From the NCBI RefSeq assembly GCF_900089495.1, contig NZ_LT605203.1:2285420-2349419 (forward strand): a stretch of 64,000 nt of DNA. The letters are read 5' to 3'. This document shows positions 10,805-33,908 of this stretch, one piece after another (position 1 is the first letter of the stretch; each line of letters starts with the position of its first letter). This stretch comes from Thiomonas sp. X19. Its GTDB lineage: Bacteria; Pseudomonadota; Gammaproteobacteria; Burkholderiales; Burkholderiaceae_C. Under the pieces are notes generated by a model that saw only the letters and a list, made by a program, of their open reading frames with translations, searched no databases and had not been told where the DNA came from. The position numbers and the translations under genes are program-made.

Positions 10805-10805
10805 C

Positions 10806-14816: not shown

Positions 14817-14823
14817 TCCGTTT

Positions 14824-14939: not shown

Positions 14940-16850
14940 ATGGCTGCAACCTCACACCAACCCACGCTGTATCACATCCCGCGCGCGCAGAAGGACATGA
15001 CACGCTTCGTCTGGACGGCCCTCGGCCTGTTCGTGATGATCGTCCTGCTGTCGTCCTGGGCCGCGACCGAGTACACCGCCTGGGCGCTGCAATGGAGCGT
15101 CACGCTGGGCAAGCCCATGCTCGGGCGGTTTGTGTACTTTCCGTTCGACATCCTGGTGTGGACGTGGACATTCAACTCGCCAGCCTATGGCGCTGCAGTG
15201 ATGACCGTCTTCGAGCATGCGCACCTGATCATGGGTGTGGGCGGCTTCCTGTCGCTCGTCCTGCCGGTGGCGCTGATGTTCCGGCGCACGCGCAAGATCG
15301 AGGGTGAAAAGAACGACCTGCACGGCTCGGCGCATTGGGCCTCGCCCGATGAGGTGGCCGAAACCGGCCTGCTGCCGACAGAAAAGAACGCTGGCGGGGT
15401 GTTCTTCGGCAACTTCGAGGATCACTACCTGCGCCACGCCGGGCCGGAACATATCCTGGCGTTCGCGCCGACGCGCTCGGGCAAGGGCGTGGGCATCATC
15501 CTGCCAACCCTGTTGTCCTGGAAGCACTCGGTGCTGGTCAACGACATCAAGGGCGAGTGCTGGCATTTCACGGCAGGCTGGCGCAGCACGATGCTGGGGC
15601 AGCGCTGTATCAAGTTCGATCCGGCCAACCCAGGCTCGGCACGCTTCAACCCGCTGGCCGAAATCCGGCTGGACGGCAATCTGATCAAGGACGTGCAGAA
15701 CATCGCCACCATGATCGTCGACCCGGACGGCAAGGGGCTGAACGACCACTGGGCGAAGACGGGCTTCGACCTGATGACGGGCGTGATCCTGTTCGTGCTG
15801 CTGTATGAGCCGATCCGGGACAAGTCGCTGGCGACGGTGCAGGCCATCCTGTCCGACGGCGGACCGATCCGGGAGCTTGCCGAGCAATTGTCGGGGGGCG
15901 ATGGAGGAGGTGATGGTGGGAGCGGGGGTGGGGGTGGCGGTCCGAAGATCGAGGGGTCGGCTGCGGTGATGATGGTGATCAAGGACACCTCGCACGCTGT
16001 CCTGGCGGATGGCCTGGCCGACGAGTTCACGGCGCATGGCTGGCGTGCGGCGGCACAGGCGGCGCAGTCATTCCTGAACAAGGCGGGCAACGAAGCGTCT
16101 GGAGTGAACTCCACGGCGTTGTCCTTCCTGTCGCTGTACCGCGACCCCATCGTGGCGGAGAACACGCGGGTGTCGGACTTCACGCTGGAGTCCCTGATGC
16201 AGCAGCCGACCAGTCTGTACCTGGTGGTGTCGCCGTCGGACAAGGATCGGCTCAAGCCCTTGCTGCGCCTGATCCTGAACCAGACCGTGCGGCGCCTGAC
16301 GGAGAGCATGGACTTCGACGCCGGCGGTGGCAAGTCGCGCTATCCGCACCGGCTGCTGCTGGCCATCGACGAATTCCCGTCGTTGGGCAAGCTGGACGTG
16401 TTCCAGGAAGCGTTGGCGTTCATCGCGGGCTACGGCATGAAGGCGCTGCTCATCGTGCAGGACCTGAGCCAGTTGTATGCGGCCTACACCAAGAACGAAT
16501 CCATCATCAGCAACTGCCATATCCGCATCGCCTACGCGCCCAACAAGATCGAGACGGCGGAGCTGCTGTCGAAGATGGCGGGCACCGCGACGGTGGAGCA
16601 CACCCAGCGGCAGTATTCGGGCAACAGGTTGGCCGTGGTGCTGCAGAACGTCAACACCAACGAGCAGATCGTGCAGCGCCCGCTGCTGACGGCCGACGAG
16701 TGCATGCGCCTGCCGCCCGAGGACGAGCTGGTGTTCGTCGCCGGGCACGCGCCGATCTATGCCAAGAAGATCATTTACTACGAAGACCCGGAGTTCGCGG
16801 CGCGGTGCGCGATTGCGGCGCCTGTAGCGACAGGCAGGGGCAAGGATTGA
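14940..16850 (+). CDS. traG: Type IV coupling protein TraG/VirD4
   Basis: The 636-residue ATPase links the relaxosome to the mating channel. Two N-terminal membrane segments (about 21-43 and 80-108) precede Walker A (PTRSGKGVG, Lys 182) and Walker B (LLLAIDEFPSLG, Asp 477/Glu 478). The conserved AYAPNKIETAELLSK segment is present. ATG 14940 follows GGGGCAAAGAAC. Residues 318-336 are an unusual Gly/Asp-rich insert encoded by a GGN repeat tract (15891-15948) between the Walker motifs. traF follows 66 bases downstream. Confidence 0.93.
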   Translation: MAATSHQPTLYHIPRAQKDMTRFVWTALGLFVMIVLLSSWAATEYTAWALQWSVTLGKPMLGRFVYFPFDILVWTWTFNSPAYGAAVMTVFEHAHLIMGVGGFLSLVLPVALMFRRTRKIEGEKNDLHGSAHWASPDEVAETGLLPTEKNAGGVFFGNFEDHYLRHAGPEHILAFAPTRSGKGVGIILPTLLSWKHSVLVNDIKGECWHFTAGWRSTMLGQRCIKFDPANPGSARFNPLAEIRLDGNLIKDVQNIATMIVDPDGKGLNDHWAKTGFDLMTGVILFVLLYEPIRDKSLATVQAILSDGGPIRELAEQLSGGDGGGDGGSGGGGGGPKIEGSAAVMMVIKDTSHAVLADGLADEFTAHGWRAAAQAAQSFLNKAGNEASGVNSTALSFLSLYRDPIVAENTRVSDFTLESLMQQPTSLYLVVSPSDKDRLKPLLRLILNQTVRRLTESMDFDAGGGKSRYPHRLLLAIDEFPSLGKLDVFQEALAFIAGYGMKALLIVQDLSQLYAAYTKNESIISNCHIRIAYAPNKIETAELLSKMAGTATVEHTQRQYSGNRLAVVLQNVNTNEQIVQRPLLTADECMRLPPEDELVFVAGHAPIYAKKIIYYEDPEFAARCAIAAPVATGRGKD

Positions 16851-17823: not shown

Positions 17824-18114
17824 AAACAGACGCAGCAACCCCGAATTCCTCCAAGTCCGTACAGGCGGAGTGACTCTCTGTTGGGAGAAGAACACGCGCC
17901 ATGTTTTTCGCGATTCGCCTGATGCAGCACATGACGCGATGAAGAAATGAGACCCTTTGAATCACCAAGTCGCTCGAGTATGGATGCCTACGAAGGCGGG
18001 CACGATCAGATAAGATCGAAAGCTGCGAAGATTAGGCTATAACGTGTCGCTGGCGCCCGACTCGCTTGCGGCCGGGGCATATCGGCGACCTTATACCAAT
18101 GAAAACAAGATTTG
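17824..18114. other. Non-coding spacer before the defence island
   Basis: About 290 bases without a convincing gene, lower in GC than its flanks. It is likely debris from the deletion at 17.5-17.8 kb plus the promoter of the methyltransferase. No att repeat or tRNA was recognised. Confidence 0.4.
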
Positions 18115-19671
18115 ATGTTGCGGCAGGGTGAGATTCCCGTAGTCGACTTGTTCGCCGGGCCGGGGGGGCTTTGCGAAGGATTTTCGTCCCTCTTGGACGA
18201 GGAGGGGCGCCCGCGATTCGCCGTCAAGGTGTCCATCGAGAAGGACCCCGTCGCGCACTCGACCTTGATGCTGCGCGCACTGTTTCGCAAGTTTCCCAAT
18301 GGGCAAGCCCCCGAAGCGTATTACGACTACGTTCGCGGAGCCATCTCGCGCGAGACGTTCATGACACACCGCGATATCCGCATGGCGGCGTGCGAGGCTG
18401 CTAGCGAGGCAAGGTGCGCCGAGCTCGGAGCCACGCCCCACGAGCAGGTCGACGCCTGGATAGCCTCGGCCATCGGCAAACGATCCGATTGGGTCCTCAT
18501 TGGCGGGCCGCCTTGCCAAGCCTACTCGCTCGCGGGTCGATCTCGGCTGAGGGGCAAGGATCCCGTCGCGTTCGAAAGCGACAAGAGGCACTTCCTCTAC
18601 ACAGAATACCTTCGGATCATCCAGCGGTTCATGCCCTCGGTCTTCGTGATGGAAAACGTCAAAGGGATGCTCAACTCGAAGCATGGTGGCAGCCCCATAT
18701 TCGACAGAATCCTCTCCGACTTGACCGAACCCAAACCTGGGTTGAGCTATCAGGTGCGTTCTCTTGTGGTCGACGGCAACGAGCTCGACCCCGTCGACTT
18801 CGTCATCAAAAGCGAGCTCTACGGCATCCCGCAATGCCGGCACCGGGTCATCCTCTTCGGAATCCGATCCGACGTGGCCTTGGGGACAAGCGCGCTTGAA
18901 GAGACTCCCAAACAGTTCCTGCTTAGAAAAGCCAACGACAAAGTGAGCGTCAACGAAGCGTTGGCGGGACTGCCCGCGCTTCGCAGCCGATTGTCCAAGG
19001 AGCAGGATTCGCACGAGGCTTGGGTTTCGGCCCTACGCAAGGCTCCCGAGAGCCTCAAAGGCTGGCACTTGGAGCTTCGCGCCACGATTGAAGAGGCGAT
19101 GGGAATCGCAGCGAGCGACGCGGAACTCCACATGTCGGCAGGGGCTAGGTTCATCCCGATGGTGAAAGCTCCGGGCGGGGCCATGCCTAGGGAGTTGCAG
19201 CAGTGGATTCTGGACCCAAGGTTAGGCGGGGTCATCCAACACGAGACCCGGTCCCACATGCGAACGGACCTCTACCGCTACCTCTTCGCGTCCTGCTTCG
19301 CCGAGGCCGTGACCTATGGACCAAAGCTTCGCAACTTCCCGCCCAAGCTTCTTCCAGATCATGTCAACATCGACGCAGAGGAGATCCCCTTCGCAGACCG
19401 TTTTCGCGTCCAAGTTGGCGGCGAGCCGTCGTCGACGGTCGTCGCACACATCAAGAAGGACGGGCACTACTACATTCACCCCGATCCGTCCCAATGCCGA
19501 AGCCTCACGGTGCGTGAAGCCGCCAGGCTTCAAACCTTCCCCGACAACTATTTCTTCGAAGGCACGCGCACCGAACAATATGGGCAGGTCGGAAACGCCG
19601 TCCCGCCGCTATTAGCCCGCAAGATCGCCAAGGTGATCCACAAGTTCCTGTCTTCCCCACGAGGCTTGTGA
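18115..19671 (+). CDS. DNA (cytosine-5) methyltransferase
   Basis: The 518-residue protein has C5-methyltransferase motifs in order: motif I VVDLFAGPGGLCEGF, motif IV GGPPCQAYS (catalytic Cys 134), motif VI VMENVKG (Glu 180), motif VIII QCRHRVILFGIR and motif X QVGNAVPPLLARKI. The target-recognition region lies at about 300-440. It methylates cytosine in a specific site and would protect self DNA. The ATG at 18115 is preceded by an in-frame TTG. The gene converges on the Vsr-ended operon, the usual partner of C5 methylases because Vsr repairs T:G mismatches from deaminated 5-methylcytosine. Confidence 0.93.
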   Translation: MLRQGEIPVVDLFAGPGGLCEGFSSLLDEEGRPRFAVKVSIEKDPVAHSTLMLRALFRKFPNGQAPEAYYDYVRGAISRETFMTHRDIRMAACEAASEARCAELGATPHEQVDAWIASAIGKRSDWVLIGGPPCQAYSLAGRSRLRGKDPVAFESDKRHFLYTEYLRIIQRFMPSVFVMENVKGMLNSKHGGSPIFDRILSDLTEPKPGLSYQVRSLVVDGNELDPVDFVIKSELYGIPQCRHRVILFGIRSDVALGTSALEETPKQFLLRKANDKVSVNEALAGLPALRSRLSKEQDSHEAWVSALRKAPESLKGWHLELRATIEEAMGIAASDAELHMSAGARFIPMVKAPGGAMPRELQQWILDPRLGGVIQHETRSHMRTDLYRYLFASCFAEAVTYGPKLRNFPPKLLPDHVNIDAEEIPFADRFRVQVGGEPSSTVVAHIKKDGHYYIHPDPSQCRSLTVREAARLQTFPDNYFFEGTRTEQYGQVGNAVPPLLARKIAKVIHKFLSSPRGL

Positions 19672-19794
19672 CCTCGGCGCGCCGAGTGCGGCTCCGAAAC
19701 GAAGCAGGTAAGTGAAGCGAGCGAAAAGCCGCTACGCTTGACGTGATCCCCAGCACGAACCCAAAGCTCGCCCCGTACCTCGGGCGCAGCATCA

Positions 19795-20082
19795 TCAGTC
19801 AGTCAGGTCCATCCCACTCCGCATGGACACCTCGTGGAGGAGCATGTTGGCGTTGCAAAAACCGTGGAAGTGACACAAGCCTGAGCAGGGTTCCGCAAGA
19901 TTGCGACGGATAAATTCGCCCATCTTCTTCTCTGGCGACAACATTGACCACGGAACGCCGGTAAATTCAAGGGCAATCGAATCGACGGTTGACAGCACGA
20001 CAGGCATGAAAATTGCATTTGTGCCGCGCTTTGTGCGATCGCTTCTACTTCGACATGCCGCTGATCTCTCCCGAAGCTGCAT
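19795..20082 (-). CDS. Possible small protein after vsr
   Basis: This 95-residue frame overlaps the last 38 bases of vsr. The first 20 residues look like a shadow of vsr. The rest (LEFTGVPWSMLSPEKKMGEF, then FHGFCNANMLLHEV) has ordinary protein composition and may be real, perhaps from an internal ATG near 20007. No family was recognised. If it is not a gene, 19672-20044 is simply the convergent intergenic region. Confidence 0.3.
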   Translation of the reverse strand: MQLRERSAACRSRSDRTKRGTNAIFMPVVLSTVDSIALEFTGVPWSMLSPEKKMGEFIRRNLAEPCSGLCHFHGFCNANMLLHEVSMRSGMDLTD

Positions 20083-20500
20083 CGCCTTCGATCCAGCTTC
20101 GCAACTCTTGTTGGAGGGTTAAAGCCGCATTCAGACTTCGAGTCGCGCATTCCCAAACACAAAGGACACGCCAGCCCATGGCGCCCAATCTATCCATCGC
20201 ACGCTTGTCGCGCTCGACATTAGCTTGAAGCTTGGCCTTCCAGAAGTCGGGCCGGGTCGAGGGCTCCTTGGCGTAGCGGCATCCCTCGTGGGAATGCCAG
20301 AAGCAGCCATGGGCGAAGATGGCAATCTTGCGTCCGGGCATGACGATGTCGGGTGCGCCCGGCAAATCGCGTCTGTGGAGCCGAAATCGGTATCCAGCCG
20401 CAAACAGGGCTTTTCGAACAAGGATTTCTGGCTTCGTATCCTTGCCCCGAATGCCGGACATCATCCTGCTTCGGACCGCGGGCGAGACAACATCGGCCAT
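20045..20500 (-). CDS. vsr: Very short patch repair endonuclease
   Basis: The 151-residue product has the Vsr fold signature: GKDTKPEILVRKALF, APDIVMPGRKIAIF, HGCFWHSHEGC and RVLCVWEC. Vsr nicks 5' of T in T:G mismatches that arise when 5-methylcytosine deaminates, so it partners the C5 methylase that converges on it. It is the last clear gene of the minus-strand operon, 15 bases after the AIPR stop. An offensive role in this cluster is possible, because related nucleases serve as effectors in some MORC/Z1 operons, but that is inference. Confidence 0.93.
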   Translation of the reverse strand: MADVVSPAVRSRMMSGIRGKDTKPEILVRKALFAAGYRFRLHRRDLPGAPDIVMPGRKIAIFAHGCFWHSHEGCRYAKEPSTRPDFWKAKLQANVERDKRAMDRLGAMGWRVLCVWECATRSLNAALTLQQELRSWIEGDAASGEISGMSK

Positions 20501-20515
20501 CGATTTCGGGGCCCG

Positions 20516-22291
20516 TCAGCCCGCCTTCACTTCGGGGATCTTGGACGCAGGAGCTGAGTAGCTCGCGCCCATCACGGCCTCCTTGCACTCGGGCCGCTTG
20601 GCCCATTCGGACACCATGCGACCGCCTGCGGAGACGTGCAGGATGTCGTTGACCTCGCGCGCCCACGTGGCGATCTGTGCCAGCAACTCCCGCGAGAGCG
20701 CCTGCTTGACCCAAATCATGTCGAGGTCGATACGACTCCCGAGCGTCGCTGCAAGCACTGAGACCGTGTAGGCGGTGACGTTGGCTTGGAACGCTTGGAA
20801 CATGGGGCGCAGAAGCTTCTGGGTTTCCCGGTAGATCTTGGCCTTGGCGATCATGGTCTTGTAATCGGCGGCCATCGGAAGCGGAACCTCCTGGCCATTG
20901 GCAGGAGTCAGCTCTGCCATGAAGCGGTCGAAATTCTTTTGGGACCCGAGGCTGACCACGTCGGGCTTGCAATCCCACGCGTTGATGTATTTGGCCAATT
21001 CGGTCTTGGTGATGCGCCGGGAAGTGGGGATCGCGTCCTTCAACGCTCTGAGCCTCGCCGGCGTCGTTCCCTCGCGAGCCAGCAGCGTGTTGTAGCTGCC
21101 GGCGGCGCGTTCGTAGAACCACTGGCTTGAGCCGTCTGGGCAATAGACGGTCCGAGAGAGCCTTTCGATCTCGACATGGAAGGGCTTGTTGGCCGAAAGG
21201 TCCGACTGGCGCACCGCATTTTGGCTGTTTGCATAGCGCGAGATGTCGGAGACCAAGGACTCCTCCTTGACGGAGTCCTGAGTCTTCATGACGATGATCT
21301 TCGCCGGGACCCGAACGTGCGAAAGGTCAGTGTCGGGATACTTCTTCTTGGTGAAGTAGAGCGACGCTGTAGTCTGCCCCCCGTTGACGATTTGCAGCCC
21401 TTGGAGCCAGGCGATGCCCTGCGAACCGTCATCGGTCCTGGCCATGCGCATTTCATCGGCCACGATCACGATTCCGTTATTGTAGGCCATGAATCGCCTG
21501 GGAGATTCGCGCAGGGTCTTCTGGATGCCGGCGTTGACCCCCTTGCCCTTGACGCTGAGGAACGAGCGGACGTTGGCCTCCAAGAGGCGCGCGCCGAACT
21601 TCTCGTAAAGCAGCCGCAAGGCCTCGCCCGGGATGGCCGTGAGGGCATAGTCGTAGTCGTCGCTGTCGCCGGGAACGAACACGCAGGGCAGAGGGGAACC
21701 GGAGACTTCGCCGAAATCGACCGACAGCTCGTCGCGTGGCTTGCCTTCGGAAGTATGCCGATGCAGTCGCTCAATGTCCATGACTTCAAGACGCACGGCC
21801 TTGCCGCCGACCTCGCGCGTCTGGAAACTCTTGGACTTGGCGACTCTGTCGGTGATCACGAAAACGCGGACCTGTTCGAGGTCGTCGTAGTTCGCTTGGA
21901 TCGACTCTGCCAAGGATCTCACGTCGCTTGATGGGTCGAGCCTCGGCGCCATGCGGCCTTCCGCGCAAAGCGTCAAGAATTTCAAGCATTGCTTGAGCGC
22001 ACCAAGGGTCTCGGAATCGGGTATGGGCGTTGGGTCCTCGACACTTGCGTAGAGGCTCACGAATAAGTCAAGCTGGTCGTTGTCATCGTTAATTGCGTAT
22101 CCGCTCAGGCGCAGGTTCGCGTTGCCGAACATTCCCTCGTAATGGCACTCGACTGGTTCGAAAGTCATGCCGATCTCGGCCATGTGGTCCATCACGATCC
22201 CGCAAAAGACCAGCTCCTCGTAGAGCCCCCCGTCTTGCATCTGGGCTCGGACCGACGCGTATATCTGTCGCAGGAATTCAGGCAAGTCCAT
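20516..22291 (-). CDS. AIPR family (abortive infection phage resistance) protein
   Basis: The 591-residue protein has typical AIPR motifs: FLSVKGKGVNAGIQKTL, RRFMAYNNGIVIVA and LQIVNGGQTTASLY in the middle, then ISRYANSQNAVRQSDLSA. AIPR proteins were first found in abortive infection plasmids and are frequent in defence islands; their biochemistry is poorly known. The gene starts 2 bases after the PD-(D/E)XK gene stop and ends 15 bases before vsr, so it is surely in the operon. Confidence 0.88.
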   Translation of the reverse strand: MDLPEFLRQIYASVRAQMQDGGLYEELVFCGIVMDHMAEIGMTFEPVECHYEGMFGNANLRLSGYAINDDNDQLDLFVSLYASVEDPTPIPDSETLGALKQCLKFLTLCAEGRMAPRLDPSSDVRSLAESIQANYDDLEQVRVFVITDRVAKSKSFQTREVGGKAVRLEVMDIERLHRHTSEGKPRDELSVDFGEVSGSPLPCVFVPGDSDDYDYALTAIPGEALRLLYEKFGARLLEANVRSFLSVKGKGVNAGIQKTLRESPRRFMAYNNGIVIVADEMRMARTDDGSQGIAWLQGLQIVNGGQTTASLYFTKKKYPDTDLSHVRVPAKIIVMKTQDSVKEESLVSDISRYANSQNAVRQSDLSANKPFHVEIERLSRTVYCPDGSSQWFYERAAGSYNTLLAREGTTPARLRALKDAIPTSRRITKTELAKYINAWDCKPDVVSLGSQKNFDRFMAELTPANGQEVPLPMAADYKTMIAKAKIYRETQKLLRPMFQAFQANVTAYTVSVLAATLGSRIDLDMIWVKQALSRELLAQIATWAREVNDILHVSAGGRMVSEWAKRPECKEAVMGASYSAPASKIPEVKAG

Positions 22292-22293
22292 AT

Positions 22294-23298
22294 TCAGATT
22301 GCTCCCAATTTTTTCAACGCTTGCTCGATTCCGACGTCCGCTCCGGGTGTCTTGTCAAGGTCGATTTCATACTTGGCCCGCATGATCCCCTCAGGCACCC
22401 TGCCGTGCGTGAGTCGCGGAAAGTCTCCGGCGACCTCGACGATGCGAGTCCCGGCAGAAACGAACCGTCTTGGATATCTGTCGGTGTGGGCATCGAAGTA
22501 GCCCGCCGCCACGAGACGCTCGGAGAGCAGTCTCTCGGCCTCTGCGTCGCCCTTGATGGCATGCCTCATGGCGTCGACATGGTCCGGCAGGCTTTGGCCT
22601 GACGCTATCTGACGCAGGCGTGCACTGGCAATGAACAGGGGCTGCCGGACCGAATCGTCCAATTGCTCCAAGGAGCCGATCTTGCTGGGAAAACCTTGCG
22701 CCGAAAGTGTCGCCTTCACTTCGAGCGACCCAGTCCCGATTTCGAAGTCCTGCGGGCTGTCAAGCGGCCCGACCCAGGATTCGATGGCGGTGGCGGCGGG
22801 GACACCGGCCTTGATGATCGCGGCAAGCAACATCAGCTCGCCGACCAAGCCGATCTCCTCTTCGTGGCCCAGCGCCTGTGCGCCTTTGCGCATGAACTCT
22901 TGCCACGCTCGCACGCGCCCAAGAAATACCCGTAGGAGCCGCAGCTCGTCCGTGTTGCCTTCGGCATCGAGCGCGCCAGTCACGTCGCAAACCATCGATG
23001 AGAACAAGCCGAAGTCTCCAGAGTCCTTGCGGCTCAGGGCTAGCCAGGTTGTCCCCACCTCGTGAAGGTCAACTCGCTCGATGTTGAAACCTTGGCCCTC
23101 GGGCAGCTTTTCGGCAGACGGTATAGCCGCGGCCGGGAACGCAGCCATGAGGGCCTCCTCGTTTCCTGGGGCGCGTCGTCCCGCAGCGAGGCGGCACTTG
23201 CCTGCGGGCGCAATCGGTATGAACTGCCACCCATGGCGGTCGCCGGCTCCCGAGAGCGAGCTCCACGCGACATCGAACTCGTCACTCCGACGCGCCAT
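22294..23298 (-). CDS. PD-(D/E)XK motif protein (DUF4420)
   Basis: The 334-residue protein has the nuclease-like core EIGLVGELMLL, then SPQDFEIGTGSLEVKATL, which supplies the Asp and the Glu-x-Lys of a PD-(D/E)XK site. This family regularly accompanies Z1 and AIPR genes. It may be the nuclease of the system. Its start overlaps the end of the Z1 gene by 17 bases, which suggests translational coupling. Confidence 0.82.
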   Translation of the reverse strand: MARRSDEFDVAWSSLSGAGDRHGWQFIPIAPAGKCRLAAGRRAPGNEEALMAAFPAAAIPSAEKLPEGQGFNIERVDLHEVGTTWLALSRKDSGDFGLFSSMVCDVTGALDAEGNTDELRLLRVFLGRVRAWQEFMRKGAQALGHEEEIGLVGELMLLAAIIKAGVPAATAIESWVGPLDSPQDFEIGTGSLEVKATLSAQGFPSKIGSLEQLDDSVRQPLFIASARLRQIASGQSLPDHVDAMRHAIKGDAEAERLLSERLVAAGYFDAHTDRYPRRFVSAGTRIVEVAGDFPRLTHGRVPEGIMRAKYEIDLDKTPGADVGIEQALKKLGAI

Positions 23299-26173
23299 AT
23301 TCCTTCTCCCAATAGAGGTGATCGACCTTGTATTCGACCTTCACGCCATCGCCCCCTTCGGTGGAGGGGAAACTGATGGCGAAGGCCATGATGGGCCTGT
23401 CCCAGCCCTCAGGCACGGCCTCGCCGGCGCCTGAGGGCGCCAGCGGATAGAGCATCAAGAGACCGGGAGCGGGGAGCCCGACCGCGCCGGCCATGCGTGC
23501 GTTGCGGATCTGCTTGCCGCTTGGGGCCTCGTGCTCCTTCTCGCTTCGATTCCGCGCGGGATCGACCTTCCAGGTCTCCTTGGTCTTCTCCAAGGCCGCC
23601 TTCCATTGCTCATATTCGAAGTCGATCGCCTCATCGGCGGGGTCGGTGAGCACGCCGATCCGATAGGCGTCCTTGCCGCCCGTGTTGATGCGGCCCGGGA
23701 ACGTCGAGACCACGACGTCGTTGGCGAAGGCGAAGGGCTTGCCCGCCGGGCCTTCAGCAAGCAGGGCGATGTTCCAGCGAGTCAAATGGGCCGGCTGGAG
23801 CGAGTTCATCTTCTCGATGAACTCGGTGATGATCGAGCTGTTGATCCGCGAGAGGCCCGGAACTGTCTTGTAGCTTCGCAGGAATTCCAGAACGGCATCC
23901 GAGCCGACGTCCTTCCACAGCAGCGACCGCTTCCACGACTCGGCCTTCTGATCTCTCTTGCGCGCCGGATGCTCCTCTGTGGGCTTGCCCATTTGAGCGA
24001 CGAGGGCCTTGGCCGCGTCCAAGTTACCTTCCAGGGTCTCCTCGTCGGTGAGGAACGTAATGGTCTGCGCCAAGCTTCCGCTGTATGAAAGTTTGAGCGT
24101 CCTCGCTGTGCGCATTTTTAGAGGTGAGGTCACCAGCATCACTGGGTGCGACTCCACTCTCAGGCCGTATTCGCTCGGCTTGGCACCCTGGGCTGCCATC
24201 GTGTCGAACTCCTCCCGAAGCTCCTCGGAGGCGTCGGCAATGTGTCCGAACCAATCCACAAGCTCTTGGGTTGTATAGAGCCGGCAGAGATCGATGTAGC
24301 CTGGTCGATAGCCGAACCAGCGGCCCATCTGCATCAGCGTGTCATACATCTTCGTCGTCCTGACGAAGTAGCTTGAACACAGTCCTTCGAGCGTCAGGCC
24401 GCGCGAGAGCTTCTCGCCGCCGATGGCGATGACTTTGAGCCCCTTGTCCTTGTTCTCGAAATAGTCGAGCGTGTCCTTGGCCGTACCGGTGATCTTGCGG
24501 ATGTGGATTTCGGCGAGCGTCTTGGGAAGCTGCTCGGCGATCTCATCCCAGCTCGGGATCTTCTGCGGCCCTCCGTCCTCTTGGACGACTTGGGCCATCG
24601 CTTCGCATGTGGGCACAAAATCGTCGTCCCACAATCGCTTGTAGGAGGCCAGGGTCGCCTCGTGGTCGACGCGGCGGGAGATCCGCTGTTTCATCCGTTT
24701 GACATATTCCTCGACTTGCCGATGGACTTCCAACTGGACTCGGTTGTAGCGCGTGACGTGGATGAGCATCGATGAGTGCTCGGCACCTTGGCCCCTGCAT
24801 GCCCGCGCGACGCAAGCCAGGACAAACGACTCGATGGCTTCCCTCAAAGACGGAGGGAGGATCTCTTGGCCCGCGTAGACGGGAATGTGATCCTTTTTGT
24901 GCTTGGGCAGCATCCAGCCGGTGGCCAATGGCTTGCCGTCGAGCTTGTCGACCTGGTCGGAAATGTCGCGCGCCAGGGGAAGGCCGCCCACGCGTCCGTT
25001 GGGCCCTTTGAGTCCGAAGACGCGCGCGGGGCCGACGTAGTTCGACGGAGCGGAGAGGTTCTTGATGAACGATTGCGGGAAGAGGTCTGGACCTTCGTCC
25101 TTCGTTTCATTCCTGCGATGGATGAAGATGTTGGCAAACGGGGTCGCGGTGTAGCCAACGTAGGCGGACTTGGAGAACGAGTAGAGGATTTTGCGGATGA
25201 GCCCGTTGATGGCCTTGGGCTGATGGTCGTCATCGGGGACGCCGTCCGCGCTGAAAAGCTGCTCACCCGTGTCGACCGAGGCGTGGTCGGCCTCGTCGTC
25301 GATCACGAGCAAGGGCAGGTTCGTGACGATCCTGCGCCCTGTCACTGGATCGGTCGTATTGGAGACGTGGTGGCCCTGAATCCATTTGAGAAGACGCCCG
25401 AGCACCGTCTTGTTCTTCTTGACTACAAATAGCCAAGGACGTTCCTCGGGGGAGATGGCGAAGTGCTTCGCGATGGCGGTATTGAAGTCACCACCTTCCT
25501 CGCGAGTGGTCGCGCAATGCGGATGGATGGTGGGGTCGCTGTCCTCCCAATAGACACCAATGGGTTTTCCGGGCTCCCGGTTCGGGGAGGTTTCGTAGCC
25601 GAGGAAGGCCTCTTCGAGCCGGATCTGTGTTTGCGACCTCAGGTTGTTATGGAGCCCCGCCAGCACGATGATGATCTTGTAGCCAGCGTCGGCCGCCTTG
25701 CAGATGAGGGCCGAATAGCTGCTGGTCTTGCCCGATTGGACGTGACCGACCACGAGTCCCCGTCGGTCCCACGAGCCCTCGCGTTTGGGATCCTCCAAGA
25801 GTTCGAGAATTTCGTCGGTTGATTTGTCAAGCTGGTCGACGACGGTGGAGGCGAGCTTTCTTTCGAGATGTCGGGCGAGCCGTTCCCAATACCGCCATCC
25901 GGCCTTTCTTTCTGGTGTCAGCCAATCAACGTGGCCGGTGTTGTCCTTCATCGTCGTGTCGGCGGGCATGAAGTGGCTCATGCGGCGCACAAGCTCTGCT
26001 AGCGCAGCGTCAAAGTCGACCTCCTTGAGCTCGGCCTTGGCCAGAAGACTCATCGAGAGCTTCAGCTTTTCGGCAATCAGGACAACTTTCGATTTGTTCT
26101 CGTCGCTTTCGCCTCGCATGAGCGTCTGGGCGATGCTCACGACCCGCTCCTGCGGTGAATTCGCTTCCTCCAT
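23282..26173 (-). CDS. Z1-domain superfamily II helicase-like protein
   Basis: The 963-residue protein has helicase motifs: Walker A GHVQSGKT (residues 143-150), motif Ia LAGLHNNLRSQTQIRLEEAF, motif II LLVIDDEADHAS, motif III VGYTATPFANI and motif VI QMGRWFGYRPGY. Z1 proteins are found beside MORC/MutL-like ATPases, C5 methylases and Vsr in restriction-linked operons. It is probably a DNA translocase that drives the attack on unmodified DNA. It starts 11 bases after the ATPase stop. Confidence 0.88.
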   Translation of the reverse strand: MEEANSPQERVVSIAQTLMRGESDENKSKVVLIAEKLKLSMSLLAKAELKEVDFDAALAELVRRMSHFMPADTTMKDNTGHVDWLTPERKAGWRYWERLARHLERKLASTVVDQLDKSTDEILELLEDPKREGSWDRRGLVVGHVQSGKTSSYSALICKAADAGYKIIIVLAGLHNNLRSQTQIRLEEAFLGYETSPNREPGKPIGVYWEDSDPTIHPHCATTREEGGDFNTAIAKHFAISPEERPWLFVVKKNKTVLGRLLKWIQGHHVSNTTDPVTGRRIVTNLPLLVIDDEADHASVDTGEQLFSADGVPDDDHQPKAINGLIRKILYSFSKSAYVGYTATPFANIFIHRRNETKDEGPDLFPQSFIKNLSAPSNYVGPARVFGLKGPNGRVGGLPLARDISDQVDKLDGKPLATGWMLPKHKKDHIPVYAGQEILPPSLREAIESFVLACVARACRGQGAEHSSMLIHVTRYNRVQLEVHRQVEEYVKRMKQRISRRVDHEATLASYKRLWDDDFVPTCEAMAQVVQEDGGPQKIPSWDEIAEQLPKTLAEIHIRKITGTAKDTLDYFENKDKGLKVIAIGGEKLSRGLTLEGLCSSYFVRTTKMYDTLMQMGRWFGYRPGYIDLCRLYTTQELVDWFGHIADASEELREEFDTMAAQGAKPSEYGLRVESHPVMLVTSPLKMRTARTLKLSYSGSLAQTITFLTDEETLEGNLDAAKALVAQMGKPTEEHPARKRDQKAESWKRSLLWKDVGSDAVLEFLRSYKTVPGLSRINSSIITEFIEKMNSLQPAHLTRWNIALLAEGPAGKPFAFANDVVVSTFPGRINTGGKDAYRIGVLTDPADEAIDFEYEQWKAALEKTKETWKVDPARNRSEKEHEAPSGKQIRNARMAGAVGLPAPGLLMLYPLAPSGAGEAVPEGWDRPIMAFAISFPSTEGGDGVKVEYKVDHLYWEKEYGASE

Positions 26174-26184
26174 GGGTCAGCCTT

Positions 26185-27708
26185 TCATGATTTTTGGGGT
26201 CGATTCGGCTTCGCCACGAGACCTTGGTCGAGCGTCGCGATCAAGGCGGGAAAGTTCTGGAAGGGCTCGGTGTGCAGAAGTGCGCGCTTCGCCCCTTCGG
26301 GGCTCATCCTGCGGCGCCCGATCATGTCCACGTAGAGTGTCCTCAACACGCCGGCCACTTCGTCGCTTGGCTCGCCCGTGAATCCAGTCTGCGGCGTGTC
26401 CTTGTTCTCCGCCGTGTCGAGCCAGATGCGTTGGACGGGGACCGTCTCCTCGATGACTCTGAGCATGCTCTTGACCAGCGGCAGCAACTCGCCTGCGTTT
26501 TCCAACACCGCCGCGACCGAGGGATGGGTCTCGGCGATTCGATAGCGCATGCCGTGGCGCAACTTCTCGACGCTCCATGCTTGGTCGATAGGGATCTTGT
26601 CTTGGCGCGATGCCGGGGCTCCGCGACTGGCGAACACGCGGCGCGCCAGCTCGCGAGTATTCTCGGCTAATAGCGTCAGCCTGGGCTTGACCGGAACCGG
26701 GGGGCGTGCCGTCGATTTGCGAACGTCGATCTTCCACTCGGCATCAACGGTGTTGGGGATGTCCAGACGAATGCGGGCCAGTCGATGGGACTCCTCGCGA
26801 TTCCATGCGCGCGGCGATCCCAGGCCCAGCCAGCCGCCAGCAAGCAGCAGCCGCTCGTTTCGATAGACGTAAAAGCCCTGTTGGGCTGTCCATCCCGCAG
26901 GCCCCGCATTGGCCTCGAATTCAGCAGCCGTGAGCCTATCCTTGTGTGGCAGCACATGGCATTGAACTTCAACCGTACCGCAGCTCGTGTGGATTTTGGC
27001 GACCGGCGACGCCCACGGCTTGGCAGGATGCGCGGTCATGAAGGGATCCCACGGTGCCACGGGGTTTCCATTCAAAAGCAATCGCAGCCCCGCACGTGGG
27101 CCTTGCAGCAGGCGATGGAAGACCATGGCTAGGTGCGCGTCGACATCGTCGATGAGCGAGAGAAAGTCGTCGGGCTTGTAGCCGTCGGTGACGATTCGAT
27201 CGAGCGTTTCCCAAAGGACAAGTGTTCCGGCATTCTTTCGATCCAGGGGAGCAAGGAAGGGCTCGGATCCGGGAGCGGGGCCTTCGAACAATAGCCACCC
27301 AGCGTCGGGGCGCACTGCGAGTTCTGTCAGATCCCAACGCAGGCAGCTTCGGACGCCGTTCTTGACGGTGGCGACGGTCAGCCGCCGGCATTGCGAAAAG
27401 GACGCCGTCTTCAGTCCCATGCCGAAGCGGCCGAGGTCGTGGGCGGCGCGCGCAGCCAGGGGATTCTTGTCGCCCAGGCGCATGGCGCTTTCAAGCTCCG
27501 CGTCCGTCATTCCACATCCGTCGTCAAGGACGGTGATGCGGCTATTGCTCCCGTCCCACGCGAAATCGATGCGGACTTCTTTGGCCGCTGCTGAAATGCT
27601 GTTATCGACGATGTCGGCCAAGGCGGTCGCCGTCGAGTATCCGAGGCCGCGGAGCGATTCGAGCATTGCGAATGCACGAGGCGGTGTACTTCTCGTCTTC
27701 TGGCTCAT
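26185..27708 (-). CDS. MORC/MutL-like GHKL ATPase
   Basis: The 507-residue protein starts at ATG 27708, which overlaps the sigma gene stop as ATGA; the frame is open further upstream. GHKL ATP-binding motifs are N-box LADIVDNSIS (Asp 35/Asn 36), G1 VLDDGCGM (62-67) and G2 LGRFGMGLKTAS. Bacterial MORC-like ATPases dimerise on ATP binding and clamp DNA. In restriction-linked operons they are thought to couple recognition to a helicase/nuclease. The rest of the protein lacks a visible nuclease motif, which agrees with separate nuclease subunits downstream. Confidence 0.88.
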   Translation of the reverse strand: MSQKTRSTPPRAFAMLESLRGLGYSTATALADIVDNSISAAAKEVRIDFAWDGSNSRITVLDDGCGMTDAELESAMRLGDKNPLAARAAHDLGRFGMGLKTASFSQCRRLTVATVKNGVRSCLRWDLTELAVRPDAGWLLFEGPAPGSEPFLAPLDRKNAGTLVLWETLDRIVTDGYKPDDFLSLIDDVDAHLAMVFHRLLQGPRAGLRLLLNGNPVAPWDPFMTAHPAKPWASPVAKIHTSCGTVEVQCHVLPHKDRLTAAEFEANAGPAGWTAQQGFYVYRNERLLLAGGWLGLGSPRAWNREESHRLARIRLDIPNTVDAEWKIDVRKSTARPPVPVKPRLTLLAENTRELARRVFASRGAPASRQDKIPIDQAWSVEKLRHGMRYRIAETHPSVAAVLENAGELLPLVKSMLRVIEETVPVQRIWLDTAENKDTPQTGFTGEPSDEVAGVLRTLYVDMIGRRRMSPEGAKRALLHTEPFQNFPALIATLDQGLVAKPNRPQKS

Positions 27709-30209
27709 TTCCAAAGACCTTCTCCTGGCCAGACTACGAACCCCAAGCCGATAAGCTTCCGGATCATTTGGCGGTAGCGGTTGTCCGGAGTGTCGGCGAT
27801 GTTGACCCATATCCTGCCGGAGGTTCCGTATCGGTCGTCGTCGACGATGAATCCCAACTCCTTGGCCTCCTCAAGGGCGAGATCCAGGTGCGACGAGGGG
27901 GCCGCAGGTCGGTCGGTGCCGCCGGCCGCGGTCGGGGCCGCTTCGCGCTTACCGGATTCGGTCGCTCGGGGCAAATCGGCTTCGACGTCCACGTCATCGC
28001 TTTCCGTCTCTGGCCGATCACCATAGGATTCAGGCAGACGACGCCCTTTAACTTCCCGCATCAGGGGCGCCGCCCGAGTTGGATGCTGCAAACGCTTGAT
28101 GGCCTTCGCCTCGATCTGTCGGATGCGCTCCCTGGTCACTTCAAGCTGCATGCCGATTTCCTCGAGTGTCATGGAGTCGACCCCGAGACCGAAGCGCATC
28201 CGGACGACGCGCTCCTCCTTGCGGCTTAGTGTGGAGAGGATCCGATCGATCGACCCGATCAGTTCCCCCTCAGCAGTGATGTCCATGGGATCACGCGCAA
28301 TGTAGTCGTCGCGGGCGTCAGCCGCGATCAGATCATCGAGGTCGAGCCCTTCGACGGACTCGGCGTCGTGGGCGATTCGAAGCAGGGCCTTGACCTTATC
28401 GGGTTCGATTCGCGCGCGCGAGGCGATTTCATCGAGCTCGGGCGGGCGTCCAGTCTCCCCCTGAAAGTCACTGGCGATCCGGGCGATCTTTTGCAATCGT
28501 TGATGGATGTGAACGGGAAGGCGGATCGTCCTCAGCTTGTCGGCGATGTGCCGGCTGATGTGCTGGCGGATCCACCACGTGGCGTAAGTGGAGAATTTGA
28601 AGCCCCGCCGCCAATCGTAGAGTTCGATCGCCCTGAGCAACCCGAGGTTGCCCTCCTGGATCAAGTCGTCGAGCAGTTCACCGCTGTATAGCCCTTTCAA
28701 GGCCAAGCTGAACACGAGCTTCAAGTTGGCAATCGCCATGCGGCCGCGCGCGCTCTGATGCTCGCGAACCGCCTCGATGAACTCCACCTCGGCGACGCTG
28801 CCACCTTCGCTCGCGAAGTCGGCGAGATCCACCAAGAAGCGCCGAGTCAGGCACAGGGACGCCAATGCAGATCGTGTTTCGCTCCAACTTGAACTGCCCT
28901 TGTTGGTGTCGATCGGCAGCTCGGAGAGTTTGTCGATCGAGATGAAGAAGTCGACGGCGTCTTGGGAATCGGGCGCGGCAGGCGACTCCAAATGAGCCTC
29001 CGGTTCAGAATGCGGCTCGGAGCCCTCGTCAGCGCCGATCAAGGTGAAGGCGGATGCAGACCCGACTTCGTCGTCGGCATCGGCTTCAACCTCGTGGGAC
29101 TCAGATCGCGGCCCCAACGATATCCACGCGAAGGGCTTCTCCCCAGACTTGACCGCGCGGGCCGCATCCAGGGTCCTGCCAATGCCCCCTGGCCACGAAG
29201 CCAGCGCGTCCAAGGCCCGCTGCACGCTGTTCTCCATCGCTTGGGCCAGCTCGACCTCCTGCTCGGCGCTCAGGAGCTTCTCCCGTTGGATTTCGCGCTG
29301 GTAGATGCGAAGCGGCTCGTTGCGATAGCTGGTCAAGTCGCCAACGAAGGCCAATGCGTCGTCGACCTCGACCTCCTCGTCCGGTGCCTCCTCGGGGTTG
29401 ACATCGACCTCGAAGTCGTCGAAAGGGGTTGAGTATTCGAATCGCTCGTCGAGCTCGGCTCCGAGATCGTTGAGCACCATGGTCAAAACGGTGATGACAT
29501 CGCCCCTTGCCGCGCCGCGAGCATCATTCGAGAGGTTCTCGACAGCCATTGCTGGCACGCTGCCCTCGCGCAAGGCTCGCAACAGCATCAGGCGCAATCG
29601 CCTGCGCCATTCGGCGTCGTCCTCGCTCGGAAGCGGCGACGCCCTTTCGGGCAGGTAGGCTTCCAAATCGCCCCAATCCGCGGAGCTGTCGATCAGCTCA
29701 AATTCCGAGATGGCCGTCTGGATTGCGATCGCGGCTTCGGAGACGCTCGGATCCGCTTCGGGAGGCGGCCGTTCGACTTCGGGCTTCCAATCGGACATAT
29801 CGAATTCGAATCCGTCGTCGTCGAATACCTGCTCTTGGCTCGGGGATTCACCTGTCTCGGCTGGTGCATCGGGCGAGGCGGGGTCATGGGGCTCGGCAGT
29901 CGCGGGCCTGGCCGACCCGATAATGGCAGCAGCCTCAACCGACCCGGCCTCGATTGCTATGGCGTGGGCATCTCGTCCTTTGGAGTCCGTCAACGCGTAG
30001 TCAGCGCCTGCGTCGAGCAGAAGCTTGCAGATCGAGGCTTTGTTGCGCGTGGCAGCCAGCATGAGCGGAGTCATGCCATTGGCGTCGCGCGCGTCGAGGT
30101 CATCGCCCCGCTCGATATGGATCTGAACGGCTCCCTCGGCGCCAGACATCACGGCCATCCTCAGAAGCCTGCTCAAGGGGTAAGCTTCGGAGCCAGTCAA
30201 ATGGCTCAC
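27705..30209 (-). CDS. Ankyrin-repeat/sigma-70 fusion protein, first gene of the defence operon
   Basis: I prefer the GTG start at 30209 because GGAGG lies 7 bases upstream; an ATG at 30293 would add 28 residues without a ribosome site. The 834-residue product contains ankyrin-like repeats at about 12-92 (MTPLMLAATRNKASICKLLL), an acidic linker, sigma region 1.2 near 300, region 2 near 490-560 (EGNLGLLRAIELYDWRRGFK, YATWWIRQHISRHIADKL), region 3, and region 4 near 655-712 (RERIRQIEAKAIKRLQ). It is thus a primary-type group sigma factor, not an ECF factor. An acidic insert separates regions 1.2 and 2. The C-terminal 60 residues (LGFIVDDDRYGTSGRIWVN) look like a separate small domain. The stop overlaps the ATPase start. 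It could switch transcription of the operon or reprogram RNA polymerase. Confidence 0.85.
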   Translation of the reverse strand: MSHLTGSEAYPLSRLLRMAVMSGAEGAVQIHIERGDDLDARDANGMTPLMLAATRNKASICKLLLDAGADYALTDSKGRDAHAIAIEAGSVEAAAIIGSARPATAEPHDPASPDAPAETGESPSQEQVFDDDGFEFDMSDWKPEVERPPPEADPSVSEAAIAIQTAISEFELIDSSADWGDLEAYLPERASPLPSEDDAEWRRRLRLMLLRALREGSVPAMAVENLSNDARGAARGDVITVLTMVLNDLGAELDERFEYSTPFDDFEVDVNPEEAPDEEVEVDDALAFVGDLTSYRNEPLRIYQREIQREKLLSAEQEVELAQAMENSVQRALDALASWPGGIGRTLDAARAVKSGEKPFAWISLGPRSESHEVEADADDEVGSASAFTLIGADEGSEPHSEPEAHLESPAAPDSQDAVDFFISIDKLSELPIDTNKGSSSWSETRSALASLCLTRRFLVDLADFASEGGSVAEVEFIEAVREHQSARGRMAIANLKLVFSLALKGLYSGELLDDLIQEGNLGLLRAIELYDWRRGFKFSTYATWWIRQHISRHIADKLRTIRLPVHIHQRLQKIARIASDFQGETGRPPELDEIASRARIEPDKVKALLRIAHDAESVEGLDLDDLIAADARDDYIARDPMDITAEGELIGSIDRILSTLSRKEERVVRMRFGLGVDSMTLEEIGMQLEVTRERIRQIEAKAIKRLQHPTRAAPLMREVKGRRLPESYGDRPETESDDVDVEADLPRATESGKREAAPTAAGGTDRPAAPSSHLDLALEEAKELGFIVDDDRYGTSGRIWVNIADTPDNRYRQMIRKLIGLGFVVWPGEGLWK

Positions 30210-30470
30210 GCGGGCGCCTCCATCCAGACCTTCGGGGTTGTATCTTCCCCCGTTCGTCGATCGCGATCTCCAACGAGCATCGGCGCGTGGCACTCGTCAT
30301 AGCCAGACAGCTCTGATGTCCCTGCGGCCATGTGGGCTCTGGAAGTTTGTGTTTCGGGAAATTCTACAGGCGTGGGAGCCGGCGGCACTTGTACAACCGC
30401 GCGGATGCAACCTTGCGATAGATCTGGCGATAGCAAAAGAATCTGGGCCTTCATATGGCCCTATACCGTC

Positions 30471-31701: not shown

Positions 31702-31740
31702 GTCGGGTAAGAACACGCCGTTGCCGGCGTGTTCTCCCCT

Positions 31741-31776
31741 GAGAACCGTGCATGCGAGTTTCCCAGCACACGGCTC
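31741..31776 (-). ncRNA. Domain V of the first group II intron
   Basis: Read on the minus strand, GAGCCGTGTGCTGGGAAACT is followed by a complementary arm ending CGGTTCTC. This is the expected catalytic hairpin, 39 bases from the 3' splice site. Confidence 0.8.
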
Positions 31777-31822
31777 AAGCCTTCCAGCAGCCCGAGATCG
31801 GACCGGGTTCGTGACAACGGAA

Positions 31823-33340
31823 TCAGTGGGCATTTGCACGACGCTGGAAGTATGCGGTCCATGCTGGGTCGAACGGGTTGGCATCGCTGCGAACCTTCGT
31901 GTGGCGCTTGATCGGCAGCCCGGCCAGCCGGAACAGCATCGGCCTGAAGGCCAATTCCGGCGGCTGATCGGCGCAGGCAAAGATCCAGTCGCGCAGACCC
32001 TGGCGCTCGAAGTACCGCGCCTTGATCCAGCGAAGGGGCTTGCGCGGGTGGCGGCGTTTGGCCCACACCCACAGCTTGGTCCACACGAGATGATCGATCC
32101 GTGAGAAGGTCGCCGCGGCCACGATATGCCGGTGGTACATCGCCCAGCCCCGAAGGATCGGGTTGAGCAACATGATCACCTGCGCTTGTGTGGCAGCCTT
32201 GTTCTTTCCCAGCACTTCACGCACCTTTTTCAGGAGCGAAGCCACGCTCTTGCGCGCGGGCTTGATCAGAAGTTTGTTCCCGTACTTGCGCACGTTCTGC
32301 CCGAGGAAGTCGAATCCTCGGCAGATATGCGTGATCCGCGTCTTCTCGGGCGCCAGTTGCAGGCCGCGCCCCGCGAGGAATGCCTCGACGGCCGGTTTGA
32401 CCCGCTGCTCCAGCAGCTCCCGAGTTGCGCCAGTCACGATGAAGTCATCCGCATAGCGGACAACGTGCGCCTTGGCAGGTTGTCGCGCGTTCGGGCTGCG
32501 GCCGAGGGCCGAGCGCACCGCGTCTTCGATGCCATCCAGCGCCATGTTGGCCAGCACCGGTGAAGCAATCCCGCCTTGCGGCGTTCCTGCTTCAGTGGGG
32601 AACAGCACTCCTTGGTCGATGAATCCAGCACTCAGCCACTTGCGCAGAACGATCTTGTCCATCGGGATCTTCTTCAACAGCCAGTCATGACTGATGTTGT
32701 CGAAGCAGCCCCGGATGTCGCCTTCAAGAACCCACTGCGCAGAGTCGCGTTTGGCGAGTGCATTGAAGCAGTGCTCGATGGCATCGGCCGTCGATCGCCG
32801 GGGCCTGAAGCCATAGGAGTTCTTGTCGGCTGTCGTTTCCGCAACGGGGTTCAACGCCAGTAACCACAGCGCTTGCATGGCCCGGTCTCGCATGGTCGGA
32901 ATGCCCAGCGGGCGCTTCTTTCCGTTGCTCTTCGGGATATACACGCGCCGCAGTGGTCGCGGCTGATAGCCCCTGTGTGTCAGTGCTTGCGATGCCTTCA
33001 TCTTCGACATCGGAGTCTTCCAGATCTTGCCGTCAACGCCTGCCGTCCTCTTGCCTTCGTTCTCCGTCACTCGCTTCACGGCAAGCAGCTTGCCGCTATG
33101 CGAGCGGGTCAGCAGGTGTTGCAAGGCCTGGACCTTGTTCCACCTGCCAGCCTGTGTGGCCTTGGCAATACGCGCCTGTAGCCGCGTGACCTCTTCGTTG
33201 ACCTGAGCCCAGTTGATCTGGTCCCAAGTCATCTCATCGGTTGGAGGCGCACCGGCATCCTCGGCACAGGCTCGCGCCCTTATCGCGGATACCGCCATCT
33301 GCCTTCCTCCTGATCGCGGTTTCTCAGTCTCTCTTGCCAT
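31823..33340 (-). CDS. ltrA: Group II intron reverse transcriptase/maturase
   Basis: The 505-residue LtrA-type protein reverse transcribes the intron and aids splicing. RT motifs include RPLGIPTMRDRAMQ, YGFRPRRSTADAI, GTPQGGIASPVLANMALDG and the catalytic VRYADDFIV. A maturase (X) domain follows. The end (SDANPFDPAWTAYFQRR) looks like the beginning of an HNH endonuclease region but lacks the Cys/His cluster, so it is probably endonuclease-minus or truncated. Confidence 0.9.
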   Translation of the reverse strand: MARETEKPRSGGRQMAVSAIRARACAEDAGAPPTDEMTWDQINWAQVNEEVTRLQARIAKATQAGRWNKVQALQHLLTRSHSGKLLAVKRVTENEGKRTAGVDGKIWKTPMSKMKASQALTHRGYQPRPLRRVYIPKSNGKKRPLGIPTMRDRAMQALWLLALNPVAETTADKNSYGFRPRRSTADAIEHCFNALAKRDSAQWVLEGDIRGCFDNISHDWLLKKIPMDKIVLRKWLSAGFIDQGVLFPTEAGTPQGGIASPVLANMALDGIEDAVRSALGRSPNARQPAKAHVVRYADDFIVTGATRELLEQRVKPAVEAFLAGRGLQLAPEKTRITHICRGFDFLGQNVRKYGNKLLIKPARKSVASLLKKVREVLGKNKAATQAQVIMLLNPILRGWAMYHRHIVAAATFSRIDHLVWTKLWVWAKRRHPRKPLRWIKARYFERQGLRDWIFACADQPPELAFRPMLFRLAGLPIKRHTKVRSDANPFDPAWTAYFQRRANAH

Positions 33341-33908
33341 GGAAGACCTGGCGGAAGTCAGCGCGCTTTCGCGCCGGGTGATGTCGCAACCCGTATCCGT
33401 TCGATTACAGAACGGCGTTCGCTTGCTCCGCTTTCCTTTACCCGCTGCGCCATCAGCCTTCCTTGCGGTTGGCCTGCCGTTGCCGGCGGCTCGTCGGGCT
33501 TACCGTGTTCCGTACACATCACAACGCGTGGGGTCGGTCCTGCCTGTACACCGGTGGTCTTCCTGTCCGTGTGCGCCGTAGCAAAGGGAGGCGCAGCCGA
33601 CCACGTACCGTTTTGGTTCAAGCCTGTCAGCATCTTTGGCTTGTCGTGCATAACGATGCCTGCAGCAGTTCACTTCTGTTGACCATGCCACTCAGCCTGG
33701 CACCCCATCCGCCTTGATGCTGGCAGGTGGCGCCGTTTCCTCGCGGAAGCCGACGCGGCCCAAGGGCCCGATACGTTGTCCCCGTGGCTTCACACGCCGC
33801 CGTTGCCAGCAACGCATGCACAGGTAGGCTACGGCCGACGGAACGGCCGGTCTCGTCACCAACCTCGTGAGCGGGCGAGACAATGATGTGTGCAACTTCA
33901 CGTCGCAC

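Follow-up and report, generated by a model that had tools for sequence, protein, structure and literature searches.

The 64,000-nt stretch of the Thiomonas sp. X19 genome analysed here (contig NZ_LT605203.1, positions 2,285,420–2,349,419 of the forward strand; hereafter the window, whose own numbering is used throughout) almost certainly carries, judged by its protein matches, a divergent MZA-type defence system (mzaABCDE) with its own C5 DNA methyltransferase and Vsr endonuclease. The first gene of this operon encodes MzaA, which by its domain matches is a fusion of ankyrin repeats to a whole primary-sigma layout (a region-1.1-like segment, then sigma-70 regions 1.2 to 4), and in three lineages of related operons the sigma part looks to have been replaced by a copy of the host lineage's primary sigma factor, RpoD. 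From these comparisons we propose, tentatively and at somewhat less than an even chance, that MzaA connects the MZA effector with sigma-70 RNA polymerase. The mosaics seen in the relatives are natural domain swaps that separate the operon-bound part of MzaA from the part that seems to be fitted to the host, a history that makes the role of the sigma factor in immunity directly testable. In our literature search we found neither the whole primary-sigma layout with its conserved promoter-reading residues, nor a single gain of the sigma gene, nor the clustering of MzaAs with host RpoD in three lineages in print.

Identification of the Operon as an MZA-Type System

MZA (mzaABCDE) was reportedly described as an anti-phage system by Gao et al. 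in 2020. In the window, homologues of mzaA–E lie in a single operon in the order A-B-C-D-E, as the gene order of MZA has it, and all PADLOC models from MzaA to MzaE match (E 9e-59 to 0). The NCBIfam models NF041931–NF041935 match as well, with scores of 446, 764, 1187, 365, and 911 against equivalog cut-offs of 800, 850, 1500, 420, and 1050, respectively. Given that none of the five proteins reaches its cut-off, we have filed the operon as a divergent MZA-type system instead of as strict NCBI equivalogs; it shares with MZA the five genes, their order, and the sigma gene MzaA, and differs in these lower scores and in the attached C5 methylase and Vsr. The NCBIfam MzaA model takes in the front half of the protein, as two relatives (loci L041 and L018) match it from its position 2 onwards.

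A first-pass annotation, made from the letters alone, had read the locus as a restriction-linked defence operon with the sigma factor as an added layer, a reading to which the matches to MzaA–E, Vsr, and the C5 methylase point as well. Its statement that no described system has this sigma member did not hold, as the member is MzaA, for which PADLOC and NCBIfam models exist and which is termed a sigma factor in PMC9523054. A novel sigma-headed system was therefore ruled out, as was the ankyrin fusion as a novelty, ankyrins being the rule in the family: a precomputed ankyrin Pfam domain is present in all but two (P0095 and P0096) of the 120 listed among 576 MzaA homologues, and ankyrin coverage reached one half or more in 74 of 77 MzaAs, the exceptions being L022 (at a contig start), L044, and L057. 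Our literature search, which took in few subscription papers and no preprints, returned no published functional description of the sigma role of MzaA. One published set of related systems has mzaA in only a few members, in contrast to the window and 76 of the 80 nearest relatives kept, all of which have it. The MORC/paraMORC operons of Iyer et al. 2008 (PMC2292703) have GHKL ATPase, helicase, DNA methylase, Vsr, and AIPR genes in common with this operon; in the main text of that paper the word "sigma" is absent.

Anatomy and Predicted Structure of MzaA

The mzaA gene (27705–30209, minus strand) probably starts at a GTG codon at 30209, giving a protein of 834 a.a.; residue numbers for its domains follow the 862-a.a. 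open reading frame. All of the following parts are encoded on the minus strand. The ankyrin domain (residues 36–130, nt. 29904–30188), with a mean pairwise identity of 0.46 among 72 MzaAs, is followed by an acidic linker and the region-1.1-like segment (residues 227–290, nt. 29424–29615), which was recognised from a 26.6-bit phmmer piece to RpoD and from structural alignment. Next come region 1.2 with a reduced non-conserved region (NCR; residues 323–508, nt. 28770–29327), region 2 for core binding and −10 reading (nt. 28524–28760), region 3 with a diverged 3.2 finger (nt. 28248–28523), and region 4 for −35 reading (nt. 28059–28247). A C-terminal domain (nt. 27708–27893), found in 37 of 77 MzaAs, closes the protein; it had no Pfam match, and its profile, searched against the open reading frames of the loci, found only MzaAs (one of them that of L140) and a fragment in L060.

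Sigma regions 1.2, 2, 3, and 4 all exceed their Pfam cut-offs in the window's MzaA, and a sequence search of the PDB aligned the protein from residue 228 onwards to the start of RpoD (the 26.6-bit piece) and residues 512–744 to regions 2–4. The likeness of the region-1.1-like part is weak in sequence, at 0.18–0.19 identity to the host RpoD; we read region 1.1 as probably present. In the predicted structure (mean predicted local distance difference test score, pLDDT, 78.8; predicted template modelling score, pTM, 0.55), the top Foldseek matches were sigma70 chains of RNA polymerase holoenzymes, with TM-scores near 0.2 over the whole flexible chain. Structural alignment paired residues from 197 or 203 to 722 of the model with residues from 5 or 7 to 612 or 613 of E. 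coli sigma70 in four listed chains, at a root-mean-square deviation near 15, a value that reflects domains free to move in the predicted chain, and about residues 8–102 of the model were paired with designed ankyrins.

The RpoD of the same genome has this layout in common with MzaA, from the 1.1-like part to region 4, and the two are 0.56 identical in region 2 and again in region 4. MzaA differs from it in the ankyrin front, the C-terminal domain, the shrunken NCR (0.11 identity), and the diverged finger, and with 299 bits it lies below the NCBIfam equivalog cut-off for RpoD (PRK05658, 555 bits). On sequence, the window's MzaA reads as a protein that acts like a primary sigma factor yet is not RpoD. 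In a tree of regions 1.2–4, the RpoD of the window's genome falls among those of Comamonadaceae and further Burkholderiales genomes, so the host is probably a member of that order.

Apparent Replacement of the Sigma Part in Related Operons

The MzaAs of Gallionellaceae (L039, L041, and L088), Limnohabitans/Limnobacter (L063 and L062), and Rhodanobacter (L043), here called captured, are mosaics: they are MzaA-like up to about residue 322, and their RpoD likeness starts at the junction before region 1.2. Compared with its own RpoD, the L039 protein has identities of 0.12 in the region-1.1-like part and 0.52 in the NCR; compared with other MzaAs, the values reach up to 0.60 in the former and average 0.15 in the latter. 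The NCR signal of L062 is weaker (0.31 to its own RpoD, 0.43 to the MzaA of L038). A joint tree of regions 1.2–4, built from these six of the 77 MzaAs and 28 of 55 RpoDs (rows picked after earlier trees), placed the captured MzaAs at three places, beside the RpoDs of Gallionellaceae (support 97/92 inside 100/100), Limnohabitans (100/98), and Rhodanobacter (99/96), and a constraint of all six to one clade was rejected (log-likelihood difference 324; approximately unbiased (AU) test, p 1.4e-4). The MzaA of L062, a Limnobacter locus, groups with the Limnohabitans RpoD and not with its own, which fits a later transfer of the operon. The captured groups also occupy separate places inside the sigma-bearing clade of a tree of MzaC. 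In a wider test on regions 2–4, which kept 30 of 46 MzaAs after 16 long-branch rows were dropped, MzaA as one clade had an AU p of 0.017.

The apparent capture of the sigma part in three lineages suggests that the back half of MzaA must fit the host polymerase or its promoters. In pairwise divergence, the ankyrin and region-1.1-like parts track MzaB, MzaD, and MzaE (r 0.84–0.88) more closely than regions 2–4 do (0.74–0.78), which supports, on sequence grounds, a front half tied to the operon and a back half fitted to the host. The sigma part of the MzaA in the window itself has not been captured recently.

MzaAs call for caution in annotation: four of the seven MzaAs scanned pass the NCBI cut-off for RpoD (L041 with 658, L063 with 650, L043 with 615, and the uncaptured L072 with 587) and can be mistaken for a housekeeping sigma factor. 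The MzaAs of Competibacteraceae (L072, L080, L082, and L077) seemed captured on identity (0.73 between the MzaA of L072 and its own RpoD) but are not counted as such, as trees place them on the MzaA side (100/100). Among the 55 RpoDs, that of L070 fell just below the RpoD cut-off used there (351 against 354). We also noted a second RpoD-like gene (L204) in the L049 genome (Duganella), with 375 bits to the RpoD domain and no ankyrin in the 740 residues read, and the L020, L031, and L033 genomes also have second matches that score similarly.

Linkage, Distribution, and Gain of the Sigma Gene

Relatives were collected by an MzaB scan of genome contigs, of which the best 80 of 263 were kept, and MzaA lies directly upstream of MzaB in 76 of these 80 loci. 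The four others are L066 and L083 (both with a contig end close upstream), L089 (odd), and L075 (Pseudomonas GM84), where a C5 methylase occupies the place. In 46 loci the sequence extends for 4 kb or more to both sides; 45 of them have MzaA, and Vsr lies within 4 kb in 42, a C5 methylase in 41, and both Vsr and the methylase in 38; as regards a role in restriction-modification, the proximity of the C5 methylase is linkage only.

Homologues of the sigma fusion lying mostly outside such clusters had been named at the outset as a sign against the sigma factor belonging to the operon, and the reverse was seen. With the 300 residues after the start codon of MzaA as the query against 398 genomes of the phylum, all five matches (the window's own among them) lie beside MzaB. 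MzaB itself was matched in 23 of the 398 genomes, and we examined 19 of the other 22 (all save G159, G168, and G468), in which three genomes (G371, G271, and G327) proved to carry an MzaA that the front-part query had missed. The MzaB score splits the two groups, at 649–830 bits with MzaA (plus G327, cut by a contig end) and 447 bits or less without it. A scan of 100 relatives, own genome included, added two more strong MzaA matches, G031 (beside MzaB) and G016 (on a 5.4-kb contig), as well as four weak matches that are RpoD. The MzaC match of the G031 locus (L142, 8148–13541) comes in two pieces with about 2.3 kb between them, which looks like an insertion. On plasmids, there was no full-length MzaA match at E 1e-100, and the front part gave three distant matches at 1e-8; in phages, the front part had no match at 1e-10.

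The MzaC tree, a quick tree with a midpoint root and 61 rows (48 with the sigma gene, 11 without, and 2 of unknown state; L142 and L139 omitted), has two changes of the sigma label, which we read as one gain and one loss, the latter in L075. The sigma factor thus likely joined MZA once, with distant relatives that have none, and long branches among the sigma-less rows weaken the direction of the gain. On this tree the systems with sigma make up a single group, from which one member later lost it, and the deeper relatives are without it; this agrees with the sigma factor being an added layer, as first suggested. In L075 (8197–11479, Pseudomonas GM84), the C5 methylase ends at the place of MzaA, a natural deletion in an otherwise MZA locus.

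Conservation of the Sigma Residues

The residues that contact core polymerase, the −10 element, and the −35 element are given here with E. coli numbering and roles. Q406, F427, W434, Q437, R451, R584, E585, R586, R588, and Q589 are kept in all 77 MzaAs, D403 and R441 in 76 each, and W433 in 72, the exceptions being L093–L097. These five form a divergent, mostly alphaproteobacterial clade, whose MzaAs have ankyrins and F or Y at the W433 position in region 2.3. At 155 positions, 95% or more of 55 RpoDs have the same residue, and of these positions the 77 MzaAs keep on average a fraction of 0.56, 0.78, 0.74, and 0.70 in regions 2.1 to 2.4, respectively, 0.43 in regions 3.0–3.1, 0.23 in the stretch of the 3.2 finger, 0.63 in region 4.1, and 0.79 in region 4.2. 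By this pattern, the sigma part of MzaA looks like a working primary-type sigma factor.

With its main core and promoter residues intact, MzaA could be an ordinary regulatory sigma factor, which steers RNA polymerase to the mza promoter or a few genes under the timing of the ankyrins and sets operon expression only. The gene is first in the operon, a 4-nt overlap with mzaB is available in 52 of 76 loci, and a swapped-in host RpoD would stay compatible with host promoters. We nevertheless consider this explanation unlikely, since the DNA-reading residues equal those of RpoD, so that MzaA should read promoters that RpoD already reads, and since sigma-70-like promoters are not in excess upstream of mzaA: over 200-nt upstream regions (55 of 77 usable), 4% had one at p ≤ 0.05, no enrichment over shuffles in a weak test with guessed start positions and no positive control, and the best site of the window had a shuffle p of 0.15. 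The earlier suggestion that the sigma factor turns the operon on found no support in this test.

Among the RpoD-invariant positions, those of the finger are the least kept in MzaA. An intact DSHLGD motif occurs in 51 of 55 RpoDs and none of the 77 MzaAs, and three of the four captured copies tested singly have changed in the finger beyond the rest of their RpoD-invariant positions: 11 of 15 finger positions against 16 of 138 others in L063 (p 6e-7), 7 of 15 against 12 of 138 in L043 (p 5e-4), and 5 of 15 against 11 of 138 in L088 (p 0.01). The excess in L041, which shares the capture of L088, is not significant (4 of 15 against 16 of 138, p 0.11). According to PMC12445709, the finger is implicated in the organisation of the template, abortive initiation, and promoter escape, and this divergence would suit a sigma factor that holds RNA polymerase poised or stalled at promoters and stops transcription when activated. 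We find such a stalling role improbable. The host's RpoS-like sigma factor and a second control sigma (L003) likewise keep just 3 of the 15 finger positions, so divergence of the finger is usual among non-primary sigma factors and in MzaA may reflect release from the primary role only; regions 3.0–3.1 are poorly kept too, and the excess of L041 falls short of significance.

Being laid out as a full primary sigma factor, region-1.1-like part included, and clustering in three lineages with host-lineage RpoD, MzaA might also be a bait or stand-in for RpoD: phage anti-sigma or sigma-appropriating proteins would bind it and thereby trigger MzaB–E, or it would maintain transcription when RpoD is blocked. 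A metagenome survey (PMC10924106) reports that mutations are dense in mzaA and that its sigma-70 non-essential domain is under positive selection, which would favour the bait; such a signal would suit a surface in conflict and is in line with the low identity of the NCR (0.21). We rate the bait as rather unlikely: a faithful bait would have no need of the divergence from RpoD that the captured copies show, greatest in the 3.2 finger, and the region-1.1-like part in the window has little identity to the host RpoD.

A Proposed Link between the MZA Effector and RNA Polymerase

The link of MzaA to sigma-70 RNA polymerase that we propose draws on sequence for the anatomy, the residue conservation, the linkage, the one sigma gain on the MzaC tree, and the clustering of three lineages with RpoD, and for the docking, polymerase binding, trigger, and effector action we infer the following. 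MzaB–E would make up an ATPase/helicase/nuclease effector, with the C5 methylase marking self DNA. The ankyrin and region-1.1-like front of MzaA probably docks on other Mza proteins, and the back half would bind core RNA polymerase and read ordinary −10/−35 promoters. MzaA would in this way put the MZA complex on sigma-70 RNA polymerase, or let the complex watch the polymerase, and the nuclease module could then be released when a phage takes over the polymerase or when unmethylated phage promoters are transcribed. In a more specific form, which we regard as doubtful, MzaA would be a host-matched mimic, the operon having repeatedly re-copied the primary sigma factor behind an ankyrin dock so that the complex guards or rides the polymerase and strikes on phage takeover.

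Several observations weigh against this proposal. Contact positions L402, M413, T440, K557, and R596 are variable in MzaA, E407 and N409 are each retained by 69 of the 77 MzaAs, and all five members of the L093–L097 clade are without W433; the residues that are kept are among the most conserved in primary sigma factors too, and would speak for a working sigma factor and not for a role in defence. The front half follows MzaC no better than the back half does (r 0.65–0.66 against 0.64 for regions 2–4), and the mean difference between the ankyrins and regions 2–4 over 68 loci, 0.09 (0.02 to 0.17), comes to 0.04 (−0.01 to 0.10) without the captured MzaAs and is then no longer significant. Across 30 genomes, regions 2–4 of MzaA are 0.470 identical to their own RpoD and 0.460 to the others, with a median rank of 6 of 30 for the own RpoD; the host match is limited to the captured lineages, and by these identities none is general.

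The AU tests of single captured groups gave p-values of 0.0225, 0.247, and 0.0272 on regions 2–4 and of 0.295, 0.388, and 0.0927 on regions 1.2–4. We think that these tests are weak, as long-branch MzaAs can move toward each group in turn, and for that reason we treat the joint test alone as decisive. The choice of its rows followed earlier trees, and the groups were named after the identity comparison, which makes the p-values optimistic.

Finally, the sigma factor appears dispensable for the core reaction, given the sigma-less relatives and L075, which has no MzaA inside the sigma-bearing clade. Among the 19 MzaB genomes examined, 12 are without MzaA and 7 have it. By a profile search, in which some loci lie at contig ends, six of the MzaA-less genomes (G205, G395, G345, G424, G190, and G128) hold C, D, E, the methylase, and Vsr; of the others, G382 is without Vsr only, G154, G348, and G351 have no E, G406 has no C or D, and G083 has MzaB alone.

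Gene Content and Genomic Surroundings

The layout first described for the locus, six minus-strand genes (20045–30209) with a C5 methylase converging on them, was confirmed. Downstream of mzaA, whose stop overlaps the start of mzaB as ATGA, lie mzaB (26185–27708), encoding a GHKL (MutL/MORC-like) ATPase of 507 a.a., the operon gene between mzaB and mzaD (23282–26173), mzaD (22294–23298), encoding a PD-(D/E)XK (DUF4420) protein, mzaE (20516–22291), encoding an AIPR protein, and the gene for the Vsr endonuclease (20045–20500), all on the minus strand. The convergent C5 DNA methyltransferase gene (18112–19671, plus strand) encodes the PCQ and ENV motifs. When 78 MzaCs were compared, that of the window had G70P, N562T, and T665K at near-invariant columns.

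The operon sits between conjugation genes with ArdC (8.7–16.9 kb) and transposase and group II intron sequences (31.7–37.0 kb), and so probably belongs to the cargo of an integrated conjugative element. The conjugation side (8682–16850) holds an LPD7 protein, an ArdC-type anti-restriction/metallopeptidase protein, and a VirD4/TraG coupling protein. Upstream of mzaA, group II intron matches lie on the minus strand at 31702–33850 and 35096–37015 (Rfam RF02012/RF00029 and RF02005/RF00029); a maturase (31823–33340) lies within the first set, and the open reading frame of an IS5 transposase (33627–34829) overlaps the start of that intron. Further along are an IS110-family transposase (43533–44579, minus strand) with an ALIL pseudoknot match nearby (45031–45147, plus strand), and a 914-a.a. 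protein (49535–52279) with RCC1 repeats and a lactonase-like propeller.
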